Source: Ancylobacter gelatini (lineage in GTDB: Bacteria > Pseudomonadota > Alphaproteobacteria > Rhizobiales > Xanthobacteraceae). From it: 64,000 nucleotides of DNA. The translations under genes and the position numbers were made by a program. Below are positions 5,348 to 51,391 of the stretch, piece after piece; positions within the stretch are counted from its first letter, which is position 1, and every line of letters begins with the position of its first letter. The notes beneath the pieces are model-generated. The model saw only the letters and a list, made by a program, of their open reading frames with translations. It had not been told where the DNA came from and made no database searches. The stretch is from positions 558,001 through 622,000 of the forward strand of contig NZ_JAKVIL010000002.1 of NCBI RefSeq assembly GCF_022601675.1, written 5' to 3'.

Positions 5348-6247
5348 ATGTCGGAACAGCCGGTGAAGCTTGTGTCGAGCCTCCTGAGCGCGGAGGTCAG
5401 CCCGCTGGGTGCTGAACTGTCGCGGCTGCGCGACAAGGAGGGGCGGGACCTCTTGTGGAACGGCGATCCGGCGTTCTGGACCGGCCGGGCGCCGTTGCTG
5501 TTCCCGATTGTCGGCCGCCTGCCGGGCGATGCGCTGGTGCATGAGGGGCAGTCCTACACGATGCTCCAGCACGGCTTCGCCCGGCGGCGCAGCTTCGCGA
5601 CGCTGGAGGCTTCGCCGTCGCGCGCTGTGTTCGGGCTGGACTCAGATGAGGAGACGCTCAAGCAGTATCCCTTCGCCTTCGCCCTGCGCGTGACCTACAC
5701 GCTGGAGGAAGCGACGCTGACCATCTCCGCGACCGTGACCAATTCCGGCACGGTGCCGCTGCCGGCGAGCTTCGGCTTTCACCCGGCCTTCCTGTGGCCG
5801 CTGCCCTATGGTGGCACGAAGGCCGAGCATCGCGTGGTGTTCGAGAAGGCGGAGGTTGAAGCGATCCATCGGCCGGTCGGTGGACTGCTTTCGCGCGAGA
5901 CCGAGCCCAATCCGGCGATGGACGCGGTGATGACGCCCGACGACGCGATGTTCGAGCGCGATGCGCTGATCTTCACCCATCTGCGCTCGCGCCATATCCG
6001 CTTCGGCGTGCCGGGCCAGCCGGGGATCGAGGTCGCGTTCCCGGACATGCCGCATCTCGGCCTCTGGTCGAAGCCCGGCGCACCCTTCCTGTGCATCGAG
6101 CCGTGGCAGGGCTATGCCTCGGCGGAGGACGGGCCGGTCGCCTTCGCCGACAAGCCGGGCCTCGTCCTCATCGAGCCCGGCGCCGAGCGACGCTTTGCGA
6201 TGTCGGTGCGCTGGCTGCCGAATTCGGGCGACGATATCGGGGCGTGA
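5348..6247 (+). CDS. Aldose 1-epimerase family protein (LacX-like)
   Basis: This 299-residue protein has the galactose-mutarotase fold pattern. LWNGDPAFWTGRAPLLFPIV lies near the N-terminus, a conserved His follows in QHGFARR, then GFHPAFLWPLP. Near the C-terminus the catalytic-type Glu sits in CIEPWQGYAS. These fit the LacX/YihR branch, which interconverts sugar anomers. I use the ATG at 5348 (GGGGAA upstream), because the 32 residues gained by starting at 5252 run through the divergent promoter region. The exact sugar is unknown. It ends 13 bases before the convergent diguanylate cyclase. Confidence 0.88.
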   Translation: MSEQPVKLVSSLLSAEVSPLGAELSRLRDKEGRDLLWNGDPAFWTGRAPLLFPIVGRLPGDALVHEGQSYTMLQHGFARRRSFATLEASPSRAVFGLDSDEETLKQYPFAFALRVTYTLEEATLTISATVTNSGTVPLPASFGFHPAFLWPLPYGGTKAEHRVVFEKAEVEAIHRPVGGLLSRETEPNPAMDAVMTPDDAMFERDALIFTHLRSRHIRFGVPGQPGIEVAFPDMPHLGLWSKPGAPFLCIEPWQGYASAEDGPVAFADKPGLVLIEPGAERRFAMSVRWLPNSGDDIGA

Positions 6248-6260
6248 GACGCGGCAACGA

Positions 6261-7277
6261 TCAGCCGGCGGCGGAACGGTGCAGCACCCGGTCTCGGCCC
6301 TGGCGCTTGGCGGCGTAGAGCGCTGCATCGGCGTCGGCGATCAGCGTCTCGGCCGCAAGGTCTCCGCCGATCTGGGTCGCGATGCCGACACTCACCGTCA
6401 CGATCCCGCGCGTGGGATGGGGGATGGCGACGGCCTTGAGTTCCGCGCGCAACCGTTCCCCGGCCTCCCGCGCGGCCTCCTCCGTGCCTGAAGGAAAGAT
6501 GACGGCGAATTCCTCGCCGCCATAGCGCGCGATCACGTCGTCCGTTCGCCGGAAGGCGTGCGGCAGGGTGGTCGCGAGCCGCCGCAGCGCCTCGTCGCCG
6601 GCGGGGTGGCCCAGCGTGTCGTTCACCACCTTGAAGTGGTCGATGTCGATCATGGCGAGCGACAGCGGCTCGCTGGTGCGCCGGCAGCGCACCACCGCGC
6701 GTTCAAGCGCCTCATCGAAGCCGCGACGATTGGCGAGGCCGGTCAGGGCGTCGATGCGGGTGAGCCGGGTCAAGGCCTGGTTCATCTGCCGCAGTTCGAT
6801 CTCGTCGACGGCGATGGCGGCGATATCCTCCAGCGCGGCGAGGTCGATCGCCTCGCCATCCGCCGCCGGCTCCCGGCGCAGCACGCAGAGCGAGCCGACC
6901 ACCAGATCCGGCGTCAGCCGGATCGGCACCCCGGCATAGAAGCGTAGCGGCAGCCGCGGCGCCACGGGATGGCCCTCGAAAGCGCTATCGGTGCGAAAAT
7001 CCCGGACCACAAGCGGCTGGCCGCTGGAGACGACGTGCTGGCACACCGACTTGCGGCGCTCGATGGACGGGGCAATGTCGGCGGTGGTGACCGACTTCAT
7101 CCACTGATGGTGCGCGTCGATGAAGCCGATAAACGCGACATCTGCATTGTAGACGCGCTGGGCCAGCCGGGTGAGCCGGTCGAACCGCTCCTCGGGCGGC
7201 GTATCCATGATGCCGCAGGCTTCCAGCGCGACCAGCCTTGCCGCCTCGTTCTTCGGGGGCGGGGGAGGGCTCCACAT
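6261..7277 (-). CDS. GAF-GGDEF diguanylate cyclase
   Basis: The 338-residue cytoplasmic protein has an N-terminal GAF sensor domain (about residues 20-160) and a GGDEF domain (about 175-335). The GAF domain carries VCQHVVSSGQPLVVRD and YAGVPIRL. The active-site motif is GGEEF, and the product inhibition site RTDD sits five residues before it, so the enzyme should make c-di-GMP and be feedback-inhibited. The DALTGLANRRGF signature marks the start of the catalytic domain. No membrane segment is present. It follows the trehalose operon on the same strand after a 41-base gap, so co-transcription is possible. Confidence 0.93.
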   Translation of the reverse strand: MWSPPPPPKNEAARLVALEACGIMDTPPEERFDRLTRLAQRVYNADVAFIGFIDAHHQWMKSVTTADIAPSIERRKSVCQHVVSSGQPLVVRDFRTDSAFEGHPVAPRLPLRFYAGVPIRLTPDLVVGSLCVLRREPAADGEAIDLAALEDIAAIAVDEIELRQMNQALTRLTRIDALTGLANRRGFDEALERAVVRCRRTSEPLSLAMIDIDHFKVVNDTLGHPAGDEALRRLATTLPHAFRRTDDVIARYGGEEFAVIFPSGTEEAAREAGERLRAELKAVAIPHPTRGIVTVSVGIATQIGGDLAAETLIADADAALYAAKRQGRDRVLHRSAAG

Positions 7278-7318
7278 GCGGGTATCCTACGTCTGGAACG
7301 AGCGATGCATGGGCCTCT

Positions 7319-8740
7319 TCACTGTCGCGCCGCCGCCCGCGAATGTTCCGGCAATTCGCCGAGACGATCAACCGTGTGGGCGAGGTCGTCGAGGAAAGTG
7401 TCGCACCATTTGTGGATGGTGTTGGCCTCGACCACCGCCATATTGGCCCGCCAGCGCTCCTGCCGCTCCTCCAGCGGCATGGCAAGCGCGAGGTCCAGCA
7501 TGTCGGCCATGCCCTCGATGTCGTAGGGGTTCACCATGAGTGCCCCGGACAATTCATTGGCCGCGCCCGCGAAGCGCGAAAGCACGAGGACACCCGGGTT
7601 CTTCGGGTTCTGGGCGGCGACGTATTCCTTGGCGACGAGGTTCATGCCGTCGCGGAGCGGCGTCACCAGGCCGATGCGCGACGAGCGATAGATCGCCGCC
7701 AGCGTCGGCCGAGCCAGAGGCCGGTTGAGGTAGCGCAGCGGCACCCAGTCGAACTCGGCATATTCGCCATTGATCGCGCCGGCCAGTTCCTCCAGTTCGC
7801 GCCGCAGGGCGCGATATTCGGCGACCTCGCCGCGGCTCACCGGCGCGACCTGCATCATCGTCACCTTGGAGCGGTGCTCCGGGCGGCTTTTCAGCAACTC
7901 GCCAAAGGCGTTGAACTTGTTGGGCAGGCCCTTGGAATAGTCGAGCCGGTCGACGCCGACGGCCAGCGTGCGCCCGGCGAGGCTGCTGTGCAGCCGCTCC
8001 ATTTCCTCGCCGGTGACGGCCGCCTTGGCATCCTTGACGAAGGCCTCGGTATCGATCCCGATCGGATAGGCGGCGACCCGGAACCGTCGTTCCTTCAGCC
8101 CGACCACGCCGCCCGGCGCGATCCAGCCGCGCGCTTCGGAGGAAATATAGGTCAGCAGCGCGCGGACATCGTTCTCGGTCTGCAGGCCGACAAGATCATA
8201 TTGCGACAGGTCCTCCACCAGGGCGGCATGGGAGGGCAGGGTGAGGAAGACGTCCGGTGTCGGCCACGGGATGTGGTGGAAATAGCCGATCAACCCCTTG
8301 AAGCCGAGCTCGCGCAAGGCACTGGCCAGCGGGATGAAGTGATAGTCGTGCACCCACACCACGTCGTCGGGCTTCAGCAGCGGCATCAGCGAGCGCGCGA
8401 ACGTGTCGTTGACCCGCCGGTAGCCCTCCCAGTCGGTGCGCCGGTAACTCAGGGCGCCGAGCCGGTAATGGCACAGCGGCCACAGCGTGCCATTGGCATA
8501 GCCGGCGTAATGAGCGTGCTGTTCCTCCGGGTCGAGGGTCTGGAGCGCGTAGGTCACGCGACCCGAGCGGAAGATCTTCGGCTCGGTGGGCGGGTTGACC
8601 TCGGTTTCCCCGCTCCAGCCGAACCACAGCCCGCCCTGACGGCCGAGCGCCTCGCGCAGGGCAACCGCCAGTCCGCCGGCCTTGGCCGCGCGTTCCTTGG
8701 GCGATGCCACACGATTTGAAACGATTACGAGCCTCGCCAG
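7319..8740 (-). CDS. otsA: Trehalose-6-phosphate synthase OtsA, apparent CTG start
   Basis: OtsA joins UDP-glucose and glucose-6-phosphate into trehalose-6-phosphate in the cytoplasm. The GT20 features are complete: the opening [11 protein letters not shown], the AGGLAVAL loop, [34 protein letters not shown] and [14 protein letters not shown]. There is no ATG, GTG or TTG at the right place. The only start that keeps the first strand and gives family length (473 residues, against 474 in E. coli) is a CTG at 8740, seven bases after GGAGG. It overlaps the end of the GH15 gene by 16 bases, so translation is probably coupled. The next candidate, a GTG ten codons downstream, would delete the first strand. 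Confidence 0.93.
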
Positions 8741-10521
8741 AACGCTTCCTCCCAGGTTTTCGACAGGCGCATCGCCGTGTCGATCAGGCCGACCATGGAG
8801 TAGGTCTGGGGAATATTGCCCCACAGCTCCAGGGTCTGGTTGTCGATGTCTTCCGACAGCAGGCCCGCCTCGTTGCGGCGCGCCAGCAGGCTGGTGAACA
8901 TCTCGCGGGCTTCCTCGCGGCGCCCGATCAGATCGAGCGCGCCCGCGTACCAGAACGAACAAATGGTGAAGGAAGTTTCAGGCAGTCCGAAATCATCTTC
9001 GCCGGCATAGCGCATGAGGTAGCCGTTGCGCTTGAGTTCGCGGCCGATGGCTTCGACGGTGGCGACATAGCGGGCATCGTCGGGGCGCACGAAGCCCAGT
9101 TCCGCCAGCAGCAGCAGGCTGGCATCGAGCTGACCGTCACTGTCGGCGTCGACGAAGCTGCCCATCTTCTCGTTCCAGGCGAAGGAAAGGATGCGCTCGC
9201 GGATCTTGCGCGCCTCCTCCGCCCAGTAGGTGGCGCGATCGGGAAGTTCCAGCACGCGGGCGATGCGCTTGAGCCGGTCGCACGCCGCCCAGCTCATCAC
9301 CGCCGAGAAGGTGTGGATGCGCCGTTTGCCGCGCAGTTCCCACAGGCCGGCATCCGGCTCGAAGGCGAACTCGACCGCGCGTGCGCCGACCCCCTCCAGC
9401 AGGCGGAACAGCGCCTCGTCGCCGCGATTGGGCAGGCGGTGGTCGAAGAACATCTGCGCGGCGGCGAGCACCACATGGCCGTAGCCGTCATTCTGGACCT
9501 GTTCCGCCGCCTGGTTGCCGACCCGCACCGGCCCCATGCCGCGAAAGCCCGGCAGCGATTCGGCGAAGCGCTCCTCAAGCGGCGTGCCCGGCACGATGGA
9601 ATAGACCGGCGCGAGCCGACCGGACGGGTCCGAGGCGATCACCGTCGTCAGGTAGCGGATGAAGTCCTCCATCGTGCGGGTGGCGCCCAGCATGTTGAGC
9701 GCGCGTACGGTGAAGTAGGAATCCCGCAGCCAGCAATGGCGGTAGTCCCAGTTGCGGATCGAGTGCGGCGCCTCGGGGATCGAGGTGGTGAGCGCGGCGA
9801 CGATGCCGCCGGTCTCCTCATAGGCGCACAGCTTCAGCGAGATGGCGGCGCGGATCACCGCCTCCTGCCACTCGAAGGGAATGGAGAGATAGCGCACCCA
9901 TTCCCACCAATAGTCGCGGGTCTTTTCCTCGAAACCGCGCGCGGTCTCGGCAATGCTCGACGCGAAGGGCTCGTCGGGGCCAAGCACCAGCGTCGCCGGC
10001 CGGCTCAGCACGAAGGGGCGTTCCTCCGCCACATAGACGATGGGCAGATCCGTCGTGGCGCGGACGGTGAAGTCCTCGCCGGCAAAGCGCATATGGTTGC
10101 TGCCGCGCACCGGCTTCGGGCTCTGCGCGCCCCATTGGAAATGCGGGCGCAGGCGGATGGTGACCCGGCAGGTGCCTTCCAGCGGCTCGATGCGGCGCAC
10201 CAGCATCGAAGGGCGGTAGATGCGGTCGTAGAGCTTGAAGCGCGGGGCGAAGTCGGTCACCCGCAGCTTCGCGCCGTCCGCATTTTCGAGAATGGTCTCG
10301 ATGATCGCGGTGTTGGGCTGGTAGCGCCGCGTCGCCTTGGTCTGGCCATCGAGCGTCACGTCGAAGAAGCCGCCCGTCGGTTCCTCGCCGCCGAGCAGCG
10401 AGGAAAAGATCGGATCGCCGTCGATCCGTGGCCAGCAGCACCAGGCGAGGCGCCCATTCTTGTCGATCAGTGCGGCAATGGTGCCATTGCCGATGGCGGC
10501 GAGGTTCAGATCGGCGCTCAC
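8725..10521 (-). CDS. Glycoside hydrolase family 15 protein (glucoamylase/trehalase-like)
   Basis: The 598-residue protein has the GH15 layout: an N-terminal beta-sandwich opening with LNLAAIGNGTIAALIDKNG, then an alpha/alpha barrel. Key motifs are NWDYRHCWLRDSYF (substrate-binding and catalytic acid region) and, near the C-terminus, GLLSEDID followed by WGNIPQTYS, which holds the second catalytic Glu. GH15 enzymes release glucose from alpha-glucans, and some are trehalases. I chose the GTG at 10521 because it overlaps the otsB stop as GTGA, a coupling arrangement. An ATG at 10563 would overlap otsB by 46 bases. Lying between otsB and otsA, it may degrade trehalose or a related glucan; the substrate is inferred. 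Confidence 0.9.
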   Translation of the reverse strand: MSADLNLAAIGNGTIAALIDKNGRLAWCCWPRIDGDPIFSSLLGGEEPTGGFFDVTLDGQTKATRRYQPNTAIIETILENADGAKLRVTDFAPRFKLYDRIYRPSMLVRRIEPLEGTCRVTIRLRPHFQWGAQSPKPVRGSNHMRFAGEDFTVRATTDLPIVYVAEERPFVLSRPATLVLGPDEPFASSIAETARGFEEKTRDYWWEWVRYLSIPFEWQEAVIRAAISLKLCAYEETGGIVAALTTSIPEAPHSIRNWDYRHCWLRDSYFTVRALNMLGATRTMEDFIRYLTTVIASDPSGRLAPVYSIVPGTPLEERFAESLPGFRGMGPVRVGNQAAEQVQNDGYGHVVLAAAQMFFDHRLPNRGDEALFRLLEGVGARAVEFAFEPDAGLWELRGKRRIHTFSAVMSWAACDRLKRIARVLELPDRATYWAEEARKIRERILSFAWNEKMGSFVDADSDGQLDASLLLLAELGFVRPDDARYVATVEAIGRELKRNGYLMRYAGEDDFGLPETSFTICSFWYAGALDLIGRREEAREMFTSLLARRNEAGLLSEDIDNQTLELWGNIPQTYSMVGLIDTAMRLSKTWEEAFWRGS

Positions 10522-11375: not shown

Positions 11376-11400
11376 AACGTGCGAAGCGTCATGGCGTTCC
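11376..11400 (-). promoter_or_regulatory. EcfG general-stress promoter of the otsB-GH15-otsA operon
   Basis: On the minus strand GGAAC (11400-11396) is followed by a 16-base spacer and CGTT (11379-11376), an exact match to the alphaproteobacterial EcfG/sigma-EcfG consensus GGAAC-N16/17-CGTT. It lies in the gap between the neighbouring diguanylate cyclase and otsB, about 110 bases before the otsB ATG I prefer, or about 60 before the longer alternative. Confidence 0.8.
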
Positions 11401-19449: not shown

Positions 19450-20289
19450 TCAGGGTGTGACGGCGGAGGCCGGCGTCGGCACGGTCGCAGGGACGAGCTT
19501 GGTTGTGGGCGACACATCCGCCGAGCGCTGCTGGGCCTCGATATTGGCGGTCATCGCCCGGCCGAGATCGCGCGCGAAGCAGTCATAGCCCCAGTCGTTC
19601 ATGTGGAAGCTGTCCTTCCACAGGAAGGTCTCATAGGCCAGACCGGCGCTTTCGTGCCAGTCGCGCATCAGCGCGTAGCGATGGAACACGCCGACGCCTT
19701 CCTCGGCGCCCACCTTGTCCATCAGACGCAGCATGGCGGCGGTGTCGGAATCGGCTGCAACGCGCGGGGCATATTGCGGATCGATGATCAGCATGTCGGC
19801 GCCGATCGCGCGCGTGCGCTGCACCGCGTCGCGCAGCAATTGTTCGGCGGCGTTGATGCCGTTCGCGCGAAACAGCGCGTTCACGCCGGCCTGCCACAGC
19901 ACGAGATTGGGCTGATAGGCGGCGACGTCGCGCTCGAAGCGCGCCAGCATCTCGGGCGCGTCCTGCCCGTTGATGCCGCGATTGACCACAGTGATGGCGG
20001 CGCCCGGGAAGCGCTCTTTCAGCACCGCCTGCAGCCGGCTCGGATAGCTGAGTTCGGGCGCTGTCGAGCCCGCGCCGGCGGTCGAGGAGGAGCCAATGGC
20101 GACGATGGTCACCGGCTCGCCGGCACGCAGCCGCGCCGCGAGCCGGGCGAGCGGAGCGGTGAGCTTGCTCGTCACCTTGGCGCTGGGGCAGGCGGCGGGC
20201 ATCAGGCTGGCGGCCGCTGCGGGCGCGGACGTCAGGGCCATCGGGGCGAGCACGGCGAGGCAGGCGGCGAGGAGGAGAGTTTTGTGCAT
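19450..20289 (-). CDS. Periplasmic SGNH/GDSL hydrolase
   Basis: The 279-residue exported protein has a signal peptide (MHKTLLLAACLAVLAPMALT, then SAPAAAA). The SGNH blocks are intact: the Ser nucleophile in AIGSSSTAGAGS, the Gly in VVNRGINGQDAPEML, the Asn in QAGVNALF, and the Asp/His pair in KDSFHMNDWG. SGNH enzymes are esterases or acyltransferases. The start at 20289 comes one base after the upstream gene's stop (TGACATG), so it is last in a tight operon with a sister SGNH gene, opgC and hdeD. A role in adding or removing acyl groups on periplasmic glucans is inferred from that context. Confidence 0.85.
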   Translation of the reverse strand: MHKTLLLAACLAVLAPMALTSAPAAAASLMPAACPSAKVTSKLTAPLARLAARLRAGEPVTIVAIGSSSTAGAGSTAPELSYPSRLQAVLKERFPGAAITVVNRGINGQDAPEMLARFERDVAAYQPNLVLWQAGVNALFRANGINAAEQLLRDAVQRTRAIGADMLIIDPQYAPRVAADSDTAAMLRLMDKVGAEEGVGVFHRYALMRDWHESAGLAYETFLWKDSFHMNDWGYDCFARDLGRAMTANIEAQQRSADVSPTTKLVPATVPTPASAVTP

Positions 20290-20290
20290 G

Positions 20291-21064
20291 TCAGCGTGAA
20301 CCGAGAGTGCGGGCATCGACGCCATCGGTGATCATGCCGACCAGAAGCCGGCCGATGCAGCGATGGACATCCTCGAACAGCGAGGGAGGCGGAGGCGCGG
20401 TGTCGAAGTCGAAGATGCCCTCCTGTTCCCAGAAGCGCATGATGTCGTAGCGGTCGAAGAACGGCACCTCGTTGGTGCGGGCGATCCAGCGCAGCGTGTT
20501 GTTGTAGGGCGCGACATCGAACGCGAAGGCGGTGCGCGGGCTGTATTGCGGGCCGACCACGATCACGTCGGTGCCGGCGCCATGGGCCAGGTTGATGCCG
20601 TGCTCCACGGCATCGGCAAAGGCCCGGCTGTCGGCGCCCAGAATGGTGTCATAGGTCCCGGTCTGCCAGATCATCAGCGCCGGCTTTGCCTTTTCCAGCA
20701 CCTCCGGCAGGCGCGCGACCACGGTCTCGGCGGTGGCGCGCGGCAGGTTCACCGTGGTGAGCGCGACCTTGCCGTCGGGATAGCGGCTGCGCAGGATCTC
20801 CTCGATGAAGCTGGTGAAAGTGCGCGGCAGCCCGTCCTTCTCGGCCGGCGGTGTGGATTTCTTGGAGAGCGTCGCGCTGTTGAGCACGATGATCCGGGTC
20901 GGCGTGTTGTCGGACAGCGAGCGGGCCAGCAGCGGCAGGGGGAAGCCGGCGCGCGTCAGCGTCGAGGGCGCGGCGCACACAGGCTCACCTTCGGCCCGGA
21001 CAGGATCACCGCCCGTCAGGCCGAAGCTTGCCGCTAGGAAAACTGCCAAAATCGTGCGCTTCAC
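20291..21064 (-). CDS. Exported SGNH-like protein with degenerate catalytic blocks
   Basis: This 257-residue exported protein (signal peptide ending near DPVRAEG) is laid out like the SGNH protein that follows it, with similar spacing of blocks: IIVLNSATLS, MIWQTGTYDTILGA, VVGPQYSPRTAF and LFEDVHRCIGRLL. The usual GDS/GSS is replaced by LNS, the block III Asn is absent from QTGTYD, and Glu replaces Asp in the C-terminal D-x-x-H (EDVH). It may therefore be a non-catalytic partner or use altered residues. It sits 15 bases after opgC and one base before the intact SGNH gene, suggesting the two products work together. Confidence 0.75.
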   Translation of the reverse strand: MKRTILAVFLAASFGLTGGDPVRAEGEPVCAAPSTLTRAGFPLPLLARSLSDNTPTRIIVLNSATLSKKSTPPAEKDGLPRTFTSFIEEILRSRYPDGKVALTTVNLPRATAETVVARLPEVLEKAKPALMIWQTGTYDTILGADSRAFADAVEHGINLAHGAGTDVIVVGPQYSPRTAFAFDVAPYNNTLRWIARTNEVPFFDRYDIMRFWEQEGIFDFDTAPPPPSLFEDVHRCIGRLLVGMITDGVDARTLGSR

Positions 21065-21079
21065 GATGAACCGCGTCGT

Positions 21080-22300
21080 TCAACCAAATTTACGCGCGGC
21101 AATTTCGCGCTCGACGCGACCATACCACGACAAGAGGACGGAGAGACCTACCATCAGGACGATGCCGATGACGCTGAGAAAAAGCTGCATCGCCAGCGTC
21201 CCGACGATCTCGTTCAATACGAAATGTGCGGCGAAAGAAAGGAACACTCCGAAGCAAAAAACCTCAAGAGAATTCTGCCCGCACAAAATCATCGGCCGCA
21301 GCAGCTTCGAGCGCAGCGCGGGCAGGTCTACTGGTATCAATCGTACCACTACGATCGCCAGGGCGAGGAAATGCAGGAGACGCAGCGGCGAGAGGTCGGT
21401 TTTGCTGATGGGGTAGATGATGTCGGCGATCAGCGGCGGCACGATACCGTCGAGCGGCGACCACCACCAGCTCACCACCACCAGCAGCGAGACCACGAGA
21501 TAGAGCGCTGCTAGCATAAGGGCGGCCCGCGACTGCACGATGAAGCCGAGCCGGTCGCTGCCGCCCAGCCCGCACCAGCCGCCGAATACGAACAGGAATT
21601 GCCAGGCGAACGGGTTGAAGAACCATTGCCGGTCGTCGGGATAGCCCGTCAGGTTGTAGCCGGTGGTGATGATGAGCAGGTAGAAGGCGAAGGAGGCCGC
21701 CAGCGTCAGGTCCGGGCGCTTCTTCAGCGCCCACAGCACCGGCGGGAAGCTGCCGAGCAGCACGATGTAGAGCGGCAGCACGTCCATATTGGCGGGGCGG
21801 AACCTCAGCATCAGCGCCTGCACCAGCGCCACGTCCGGCTCGGAGAGGAACTGCAGGGCGCCCATTTCCTCCGCATAGAGCGGGTTGGAGAACGAGCCGA
21901 TCACATAGGAGATTTCGGCGAGATAGATCACGAACAGGAAGATGAAGGCGACATAGAGCTGCCACGCCCGGCGCAGGATGCGGGCAGAGGTCACCATCAC
22001 GCCATTGCTGTCGATCTGCCGGCCATAGACCATCGCGGCGGTGTAGCCGGAGATGAACACGAAGATTTCGGTGGCGTCGGAAAAGCCGAAATTCCGGTTG
22101 GTGATCCAGTTCACCACATTGTTCGGCACATGGTTCAGGAAGATGAACCACAGGGCCAGCCCACGGAACAGGTCGAGCCGCAGGTCGCGTCCGCTCGGTA
22201 CCGAGCCACCACCTGAAGGGTGCGCCGGCCGGGGCGGCGAACTGGCCGCGCCGGCCGGAACTTCATGCACGATCGCTTTCGCGGCGGTGGCCTGCCTCAC
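21080..22300 (-). CDS. opgC: OpgC-family membrane protein (periplasmic glucan succinyl/acyl transferase)
   Basis: OpgC transfers succinyl or similar groups to osmoregulated periplasmic glucans across the inner membrane. The 406-residue protein opens with a polar head of about 38 residues and then the family signature DLRLDLFRGLALWFIFLNH, followed by FGFSDATEIFVFISGYTAAM and about 10 membrane helices. Late hydrophobic segments end near LLSWYGRVEREIA. It is the second gene of the minus-strand operon, 10 bases after hdeD and 15 before the SGNH-like genes. The glucan synthesis genes themselves (ndvB, opgGH) are not in this window. Confidence 0.92.
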   Translation of the reverse strand: MRQATAAKAIVHEVPAGAASSPPRPAHPSGGGSVPSGRDLRLDLFRGLALWFIFLNHVPNNVVNWITNRNFGFSDATEIFVFISGYTAAMVYGRQIDSNGVMVTSARILRRAWQLYVAFIFLFVIYLAEISYVIGSFSNPLYAEEMGALQFLSEPDVALVQALMLRFRPANMDVLPLYIVLLGSFPPVLWALKKRPDLTLAASFAFYLLIITTGYNLTGYPDDRQWFFNPFAWQFLFVFGGWCGLGGSDRLGFIVQSRAALMLAALYLVVSLLVVVSWWWSPLDGIVPPLIADIIYPISKTDLSPLRLLHFLALAIVVVRLIPVDLPALRSKLLRPMILCGQNSLEVFCFGVFLSFAAHFVLNEIVGTLAMQLFLSVIGIVLMVGLSVLLSWYGRVEREIAARKFG

Positions 22301-22310
22301 GCAACCTCGC

Positions 22311-22892
22311 TCAGTGCTTCCTCAGCCCAAGGCCGAGCATCAATATGGTGAAGCCGTTGAAAATGAGGTCGATACCCAGGAAAAGACCCAGTATCCACAT
22401 CGAATTGATCGGCCACTGCACCGTGATTTCGATGCCGAGGATCATGGCGATCACCGCCGAAAACAGGATCCAGCCCCAGCCCTTCGCCGGCCGCAGCTTG
22501 AAGGCGGCGAACAGGCGGAAGATGCCACCGATGATCAGCGAGATGCCGAGCAGCAGCGTCAGTACCGTCGCGGCGAGGTCCGGCTGGGCGAAGGCGAGCG
22601 CGCCGGCGGCGAGATAGAGAATGCCGTCGAACAGCCAGAACAGGAACCCGCCCCAGCCCTTCACCGAGAAGGCATGGAAGATCTGCGCGATGCCGCCGAC
22701 CACCATCATCGCGCCGATGTAATAGACCGAGACCAGAGTGCCGATCACGAGCCCGTAGGAACTGCCGAGCGCGACGGCGCCGGCGATGACCATGATGAGC
22801 CCGAGGGCGACGAACCACCCCCATTTGGCGCGCACTTCGTGGAGATGGCTGGCGAGCGAGCCGGCTGGTGTGATGGAACTGGGAGTGGACAT
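22311..22892 (-). CDS. HdeD-family membrane protein
   Basis: The 193-residue inner-membrane protein has six hydrophobic helices in three pairs, with GWFVALGLIMVIAGAVALG, then YYIGAMMVVGGIAQIFHAF and LLLGISLIIGGIFRLFAAF, the repeating pattern of HdeD. HdeD is linked to acid resistance in E. coli; its biochemical role is unclear. The start at 22892 was chosen because the 39 upstream residues run through the promoter region. A perfect EcfG promoter lies 44 bases before the ATG, making this the likely first gene of hdeD-opgC-SGNH-SGNH. Confidence 0.9.
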   Translation of the reverse strand: MSTPSSITPAGSLASHLHEVRAKWGWFVALGLIMVIAGAVALGSSYGLVIGTLVSVYYIGAMMVVGGIAQIFHAFSVKGWGGFLFWLFDGILYLAAGALAFAQPDLAATVLTLLLGISLIIGGIFRLFAAFKLRPAKGWGWILFSAVIAMILGIEITVQWPINSMWILGLFLGIDLIFNGFTILMLGLGLRKH

Positions 22893-22935
22893 CTTGGTCG
22901 ACCTCGATCTGACTGGCGCCACACCGGCGCAGCTT

Positions 22936-22960
22936 AACGCCCGGTTCCCCGAGCGGTTCC
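22936..22960 (-). promoter_or_regulatory. EcfG general-stress promoter of hdeD-opgC-SGNH-SGNH
   Basis: On the minus strand GGAAC (22960-22956), a 16-base spacer and CGTT (22939-22936) form an exact EcfG consensus. The CGTT lies about 44 bases from the hdeD start codon, a normal leader length. Confidence 0.82.
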
Positions 22961-25017: not shown

Positions 25018-25043
25018 AACGATTATGCCTAAGAAATGGTTCC
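25018..25043 (-). promoter_or_regulatory. EcfG general-stress promoter upstream of the L,D-transpeptidase
   Basis: On the minus strand GGAAC (25043-25039), a 17-base spacer and CGTT (25021-25018) match the EcfG consensus exactly. It begins right after the trmO stop codon. The leader to the transpeptidase ATG would be about 138 bases, so a second promoter closer to the gene is not excluded. Confidence 0.72.
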
Positions 25044-51366: not shown

Positions 51367-51391
51367 AACGTCTGGTGTCGTCGCGAGTTCC
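51367..51391 (-). promoter_or_regulatory. EcfG general-stress promoter of the PRC-barrel gene
   Basis: On the minus strand GGAAC (51391-51387), a 16-base spacer and CGTT (51370-51367) match the EcfG consensus exactly. The distance to the ATG (about 45 bases) is typical. Confidence 0.85.

Follow-up and report, generated by a model that had tools for sequence, protein, structure and literature searches.

An OpgC-type acyltransferase gene linked to a pseudo and an active SGNH gene in Ancylobacter gelatini and other Alphaproteobacteria

We analyzed a 64,000-nucleotide stretch of the Ancylobacter gelatini genome (contig NZ_JAKVIL010000002.1, positions 558,001 to 622,000; hereafter the window) in which opgC, encoding a transmembrane acyltransferase (TmAT), is followed by genes for two SGNH-type proteins, S1 and S2. 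S2 keeps the full SGNH catalytic set, S1 has lost it, and the opgC-S1-S2 trio stands in one order and on one strand in all 40 loci of the same family, which were fetched for a strong S1 match. It is also kept in 79 of 80 loci from named relatives. We propose, at a little under even confidence, that the trio is a split transmembrane acyltransferase, that is, an AT3-SGNH fusion taken apart, which in Ancylobacter would be stress driven. The features of the locus are as follows.

22936..22960, minus strand: EcfG-type promoter motif GGAAC-N16-CGTT, exact match, starting 68 bases before the hdeD ATG
22311..22892, minus strand: HdeD-like DUF308 membrane protein, 193 amino acids (Pfam PF03729, 75 bits)
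21080..22300, minus strand: opgC, OpgC_C transmembrane acyltransferase of the TmAT superfamily, 406 amino acids, GTG start (PF10129, 441 bits)
20291..21064, minus strand: S1, pseudo-SGNH protein (PF25182, 233 bits), 257 amino acids, GTG start, signal-peptide-like start
19450..20289, minus strand: S2, catalytically intact SGNH protein (PF25182, 162 bits; Lipase_GDSL_2), 279 amino acids, signal-peptide-like start

The original prediction, made from the window alone, had described an operon of these four genes in the order hdeD-like, opgC, S1, and S2 with intergenic gaps of 10, 15, and 1 bases, and had taken a gene order found only here as grounds for abandoning it. The coordinates agree with that layout, and the order recurs in relatives at the frequencies given above.

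Conservation of a pseudo and an active SGNH gene with opgC

Both SGNH proteins score above the cutoff of 80 bits for PF25182, the NonGDSL family, and both have signal-peptide-like N termini as judged by eye. Against Lipase_GDSL_2, S2 scores 71 bits and S1 27 bits, compared with a cutoff of 32.9. S2 has the signature of the SGNH superfamily, the Ser-Gly-Asn-His tetrad plus Asp across blocks I, II, III, and V, and all five residues (S68, G105, N137, D226, and H229) are kept in 80 of 80 sequences. Among 81 S1 sequences (80 named plus the window), 75 keep none of the five and 6 keep one, which is not the residue set of an active SGNH enzyme. The SGNH-type fold is retained in S1, whose AlphaFold2 model (mean predicted local distance difference test [pLDDT] score, 89) matches SGNH-type structures. 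The expectation of one intact and one altered SGNH protein therefore stands, with the alteration fixed in every S1 examined. By eye the block I register of S1 can be read in more than one way, and in many S1 proteins a Ser follows at the next position. An active SGNH site with a displaced catalytic Ser was considered for S1 and rejected, since the other four residues (Gly, Asn, Asp, and His) have also been lost.

S1 and S2 share C30, C236, W133, Q134, Q173, R205, and M209 (S1 numbering; one S1 row is gapped at the first Cys). Because the catalytic residues have been lost while two Cys, a Trp, two Gln, an Arg, and a Met have been kept, S1 appears to be maintained for a role other than SGNH catalysis, and on these alignments it looks like a conserved pseudo-hydrolase under selection rather than a decaying copy. 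D219 and H234 are invariant and specific to S1, the equivalent positions in S2 being mostly Pro and Tyr, and a new site may lie around them. In the SGNH tree, which was built by a quick method and omits one partial partner (L312), the 49 broken sequences require 2 changes, compared with a mean of 31 when shuffled, and fall into two sets, both starred, with 32 and 17 members. The loss of SGNH catalysis is therefore old. We found no literature on NonGDSL and know of no described function for PF25182. A third PF25182 match in the genome of the window falls below the cutoff, at 40 bits.

The 80 named loci, the best 80 of 444 S1 relatives, comprise 63 with opgC-S1-S2, 16 with hdeD-opgC-S1-S2, and 1 with opgC-S1 on a 3.1-kb contig; this set shares genomes with the family set, and both were drawn through S1. 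The trio occurs in named loci of Bradyrhizobium, Rhodopseudomonas, Rhodoplanes, and Azorhizobium and in six Azospirillum loci, and the nearest named relatives of the window locus are Ancylobacter species. Gaps estimated across relatives have medians of -4 (79 loci) and +3 (71 loci), the use of the most upstream start codon biasing these estimates toward overlap. The S1 search gave matches in 190 of 198 family genomes and in all 47 genera sampled, figures that overstate S1, with a threshold that also catches S2 homologues. Among 29 family genomes with mostly weak or no S1 matches, 17 have an OpgC. Those of G211, G253, G269, and G381 are 56 to 60% identical to that of the window, and all four genomes have S1; the others are 29 to 38% identical, except for a second copy in G381 at 46%. 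In G381, S1 matches over two overlapping frames (L131, 2441-3423), perhaps reflecting a frameshift in that genome. Loci L132 to L144 were viewed with 1.5 kb of flank, and a second SGNH gene could lie outside that view.

The association extends beyond the family. Eight of 20 order-level loci, obtained by a single-sequence search, have an OpgC gene adjoining an SGNH gene (L106 to L110, L116, L121, and L124). In a class-wide sample of 80 OpgC stretches, fetched from about 100 strong places listed and chosen regardless of SGNH (including 3 additional copies from a single genome of the family), 33 have an SGNH neighbor. Sixteen of these 33 carry two copies, 11 as co-directional tandems and 5 in other arrangements (L260, L266, L283, L290, and L293), and the broken gene precedes the intact one in all 11 tandems. 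The same is true of all three pairs in another family of the same order (f28). Seen from the SGNH side, 22 of 29 PF25182 loci fetched in a phylum-level sample (12 of them from the family of the window) have an OpgC within 1.5 kb. PF25182 exceeds its cutoff in 34 of 397 genomes of the phylum, and among the places listed no such match lies outside the Alphaproteobacteria; the best score listed from outside the class is 49 bits against the required 80.

OpgC clades and the glucan acceptor

The OpgC protein of the window scores 441 bits against PF10129 (OpgC_C; cutoff, 21.4) and 38 bits against PF01757. It is the only OpgC_C match in a genome search that covered this family and not the wider AT3 family PF01757. 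Residues D43, R46, H57, and Y178 are invariant in all 64 SGNH-linked and all 10 aligned OpgC proteins linked to osmoregulated periplasmic glucan (OPG) genes. With a profile score above the cutoff, a DxxR motif (D43xxR46), and invariant His and Tyr residues, the protein has the features of the TmAT superfamily. In the accessible text of one study, DxxR is named as a TmAT motif and OpgC is grouped with AT3 proteins in that superfamily (PMC12423673). We infer that H57 and Y178 correspond to the His and Tyr of OafB; no solved structure is related to OpgC by sequence at an E value of 1 or below.

OpgC_C exceeds its cutoff in 88 of 387 alphaproteobacterial genomes. In the OpgC tree, built by the same quick method and with long branches flagged, the OpgC of the window belongs to a starred clade in which 40 of 47 rows have an SGNH neighbor. 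Eleven of these rows (that of the window and 10 named ones) had been included for having S1, and excluding them leaves 29 of 36. The seven rows without SGNH are four extra family copies and three rows from family f167. SGNH-linked OpgC proteins also occur outside this clade: 25 rows group, with loose support, in the same part of the tree as the glucan clade. The link between OpgC and SGNH is thus wider than one clade, but it does not reach into the glucan clade. One large family genome (G035) has, besides its trio copy, three further OpgC_C copies without SGNH neighbors (L257, L269, and L285).

The original prediction had suggested periplasmic glucans as the possible acyl acceptor, and the genomic context weakens this. 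Ten of the 80 class-wide stretches have an opgH match, six of them also opgG, and SGNH genes are missing from all ten. Their OpgC proteins all belong to a single starred clade, whose 24 rows comprise 10 with opgG/opgH and 14 with neither, and none with SGNH; the OpgC of R. sphaeroides is not knowingly in this tree. Conversely, none of the 33 SGNH-linked stretches has opgG/opgH, and no opgG or opgH frame was found in 60 loci (L066 to L125) or in the 80 named loci. In the genome of the window, opgG-opgH lies on another contig (C16; L126), with no opgC among the frames listed for that stretch. A second, divergently oriented frame beside this pair resembles opgH by eye (whole arrangement, L126:3769-5601 [+] and 5706-9415 [-]).

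A stress-induced succinylation of OPGs by OpgC, with the SGNH proteins as helpers, is accordingly improbable in our view. In its favor, the genome does have an opgG-opgH locus, its only OpgC_C match is the one in the window, and the EcfG-type promoter described below is conserved. No NdvB-type glycoamylase domain was found in the genome, and NdvB-type cyclic glucan synthesis there is rejected on that ground. A comparison within Bradyrhizobium japonicum, as far as its accessible text goes, also ties the presence of opgC to drying tolerance, as a correlation only (PMC13231049). Set against this are the position of opgG/opgH on a separate contig and the placement of the opgG/opgH-linked OpgC proteins in a starred clade without SGNH rows, apart from that of the window. 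The window protein is neither encoded beside opgG/opgH nor placed in the clade of those that are, and it probably differs from the OpgC of glucan synthesis; its name does not imply a glucan acceptor, although the acceptor may be one. The label "opgC" in many alphaproteobacterial annotations may likewise not mean glucan succinylation.

SGNH genes overlooked by the profile were considered for the OpgC loci that appear to lack them. Downstream of these genes 35 frames were found, of which 20 were run against Pfam. No SGNH or GDSL family is among the 20 families listed for those frames, and oversight by the profile is rejected on that sample. Four of the 20 frames match PF00756, a family of alpha/beta-hydrolases, which four being read from the sequences: exported-looking putative esterases stand downstream of glucan-operon-clade OpgC genes at L292:1830-2843, L302:1906-2829, L303:4227-5087, and L307:1896-2816. 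A different esterase fold may thus occupy the SGNH slot at OpgC genes of the glucan clade.

A split acyltransferase and its alternatives

In the proposed mechanism, OpgC, with its TmAT/AT3 fold, would take an acyl group from cytoplasmic acyl coenzyme A, carry it across the inner membrane, and pass it on the periplasmic side to exported S2, whose Ser68-His229-Asp226 triad would transfer it to an envelope glycan. S1 would serve as a noncatalytic subunit, either an adaptor to OpgC or an acceptor-binding partner, and in Ancylobacter the general stress sigma factor would additionally drive the module through the hdeD-headed operon. The relay and the role of S1 are modeled on AT3-SGNH and MBOAT-SGNH systems. 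In the accessible text of a 2025 study (PMC12148441), two major bacterial polymer acylation systems are distinguished, an MBOAT protein with a separate SGNH protein and an AT3 domain fused to SGNH. In the fusions, as described there, the SGNH domain receives the acyl group from the membrane domain and then acylates the glycan.

Like the AT3-SGNH fusions OafB and OatA, so far as the accessible sources describe them, the trio combines a TmAT/AT3-type membrane domain with a catalytic SGNH unit for the last transfer to a glycan. Unlike them, it has both domains in separate genes rather than in one polypeptide, with two SGNH units of which one is noncatalytic, and its membrane protein belongs to the OpgC_C branch. 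In the MBOAT-SGNH systems (PatA/PatB with Ape1; AlgI/AlgJ/AlgX), too, the SGNH proteins are exported and distinct from the membrane acyltransferase, although here the membrane protein is OpgC_C/TmAT and not MBOAT. The alginate system has two SGNH-like proteins with different jobs (PMC4148444, accessible text). AlgJ and AlgX are both reported to have esterase activity, whereas S1 lacks the catalytic residues. With the glucan succinyltransferases OpgC/MdoC the window protein shares its Pfam family, but it sits in another clade and has SGNH partners instead of opgG/opgH.

Systems that join a membrane acyltransferase to SGNH partners are known; what appears to be new here is a layout that includes a pseudo/active pair. 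Within the literature covered, which included few subscription papers and some sources in part, we found no published OpgC with SGNH partners and no description of this gene set, nor did we find literature on an OpgC acyltransferase in Azospirillum. It is possible, though we would not presume it, that the trio represents a third architecture, in which a stand-alone OpgC-type TmAT works with a fixed, separate SGNH pair, S1, in which D219 and H234 have replaced the SGNH site, is an adaptor or helps to handle the acyl group, and the acceptor is something other than an osmoregulated glucan. The accessible part of a 2023 study (PMC9833829) raises the possibility of an unknown partner for stand-alone AT3 proteins, and S1 and S2 are testable candidates for it. 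The module is present in tractable bacteria (Bradyrhizobium, Rhodopseudomonas, Azospirillum, and Ancylobacter), in which deletion of S1 could show what this pseudo-enzyme does.

Several observations weigh against a split acyltransferase. No fused OpgC-SGNH frame was found in L066-L125, L128-L146, L148-L227, or L257-L336, and a fusion of the two is rejected for the loci searched. Neither the trio nor the pairing is universal: by profile, 47 of the 80 class-wide OpgC stretches have no SGNH neighbor, and the other 33 consist of 16 with a broken and an intact gene, 11 with an intact gene alone, 5 with a broken gene alone, and 1 partial. Twelve of the 20 order-level loci have no adjacent OpgC (one lies about 3 kb off, and 11 loci have none), and 7 of the 29 NonGDSL loci in the phylum sample also lack one. 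At L116 and L124 (family f42), OpgC stands with a broken SGNH gene alone in a view of about 10 kb; these two loci count against the split acyltransferase, and given such loci the pseudo-protein may have a role without S2. The last points concern S2 itself. Its AlphaFold2 model (mean pLDDT, 88) has an SGNH-type fold whose best matches are esterases, including mannan and xylan acetylesterases, and it retains the canonical block II Gly (G105 and G108) in 80 of 80 sequences. In PatB and one OatA clade this Gly is replaced by Ser or Asn, a change linked to a preference for transfer over hydrolysis in the accessible text of PMC12148441.

These last features favor a serious rival, unlikely as we judge it, in which OpgC alone acylates an envelope glycan, S2 is a periplasmic deacylase, and S1, as a pseudo-esterase that binds glycan, directs S2. 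Such an arrangement would resemble that of Ape1, a trimming deacylase beside PatA/PatB. It would account for the full canonical SGNH set of S2 with its hydrolase-typical Gly, for the acetylesterase matches, among which an O-acetylpeptidoglycan esterase ranks 43rd, and for OpgC loci without an SGNH neighbor; in the accessible text of PMC9558356, moreover, OpgC/MdoC are described as glucan-succinylating AT3 proteins of the stand-alone type. The constant pseudo-then-active order in 11 of 11 tandems seems more in keeping with a subunit set than with a lone editing esterase, and the tight tie to particular OpgC clades also speaks against this rival. This rival is close to the original prediction that the genes together add, move, and remove acyl groups, a claim that survives in part: removal is one option for S2, but S1 is a pseudo-enzyme.

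Stress promoter and hdeD in Ancylobacter

An EcfG-type promoter had been predicted ahead of the first gene, and GGAACCGCTCGGGGAACCGGGCGTT (22960-22936) is indeed a perfect GGAAC-N16-CGTT upstream of the hdeD ATG; we take GGAAC-N16/17-CGTT to be the EcfG-type consensus. A single match to this motif is weak evidence, because the genome has 74 sites compared with 41 for a backward-read control pattern. Conservation is the stronger argument. Here and in 14 of the 15 named Ancylobacter-like relatives, the exact motif begins 53 to 69 bases before hdeD; the spacers differ, with lengths of 16 or 17, and the 15th relative, A. moscoviensis, has one mismatch (GGGAC) at the same place. In a second set of 11 genomes of the same genus, 10 have the exact motif before hdeD. 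A chance match is rejected, since the motif is kept upstream of hdeD across the genus, and the promoter is supported on the same ground. A NepR gene is present in the genome (C14:298579), with three motif sites within about 650 bases. With a conserved promoter and NepR, the only one of NepR, PhyR, and EcfG that the search covered, the operon is a predicted member of the EcfG general stress regulon, and EcfG dependence is a strong prediction for the genus Ancylobacter.

The same does not hold for the trio elsewhere. An hdeD-like gene lies upstream of opgC in 11 of 11 loci of the genus and in 16 of the 80 named loci; outside the genus, Azorhizobium doebereinerae (L197) has the same arrangement, and so do the three g112 genomes examined (L096, L128, and L129). 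The exact motif was not found in L096 or L197, the two scanned among these outside loci. It was likewise not found in the 300 bases before opgC in any of the 40 family loci, and 63 of the 64 named loci lacking hdeD have none (one has a site; backward control, 0 of 64). Stress control of the opgC-S1-S2 core in general is thus unsupported, and hdeD with its promoter is a genus-level, local regulatory addition to that core. Of the "stress system" originally proposed, the conserved promoter and the presence of NepR hold up; because the core stands elsewhere without the motif, the stress element is a local add-on. The HdeD-like protein is a clear DUF308 match and the only DUF308 protein found in the genome, although at 47 bits it stays below the NCBIfam HdeD equivalog cutoff of 189. 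We found no literature linking hdeD to EcfG.

These results also bear on whether the operon is one of convenience, in which EcfG regulates hdeD and the remaining genes are co-transcribed with separate functions. The restriction of hdeD plus motif to the genus among the loci examined, with hdeD alone at L197, L096, L128, and L129, fits such an arrangement, as does a trio that elsewhere lacks both. Unrelated functions are hard to reconcile with a trio that is kept in nearly every named locus and with the SGNH partners of most OpgC rows in the clade of the window, and we consider the idea very unlikely for the operon as a whole and likely for hdeD alone.

The window holds four GGAAC-N16/17-CGTT sites, compared with 0.76 expected. 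The three exact sites besides that of hdeD, all on the minus strand, lie at 25018-25043, 11376-11400, and 51367-51391. One of these extra sites is about 144 bases upstream of a minus-strand frame (24874-23801) that presumably encodes an L,D-transpeptidase, to judge from a motif resemblance.

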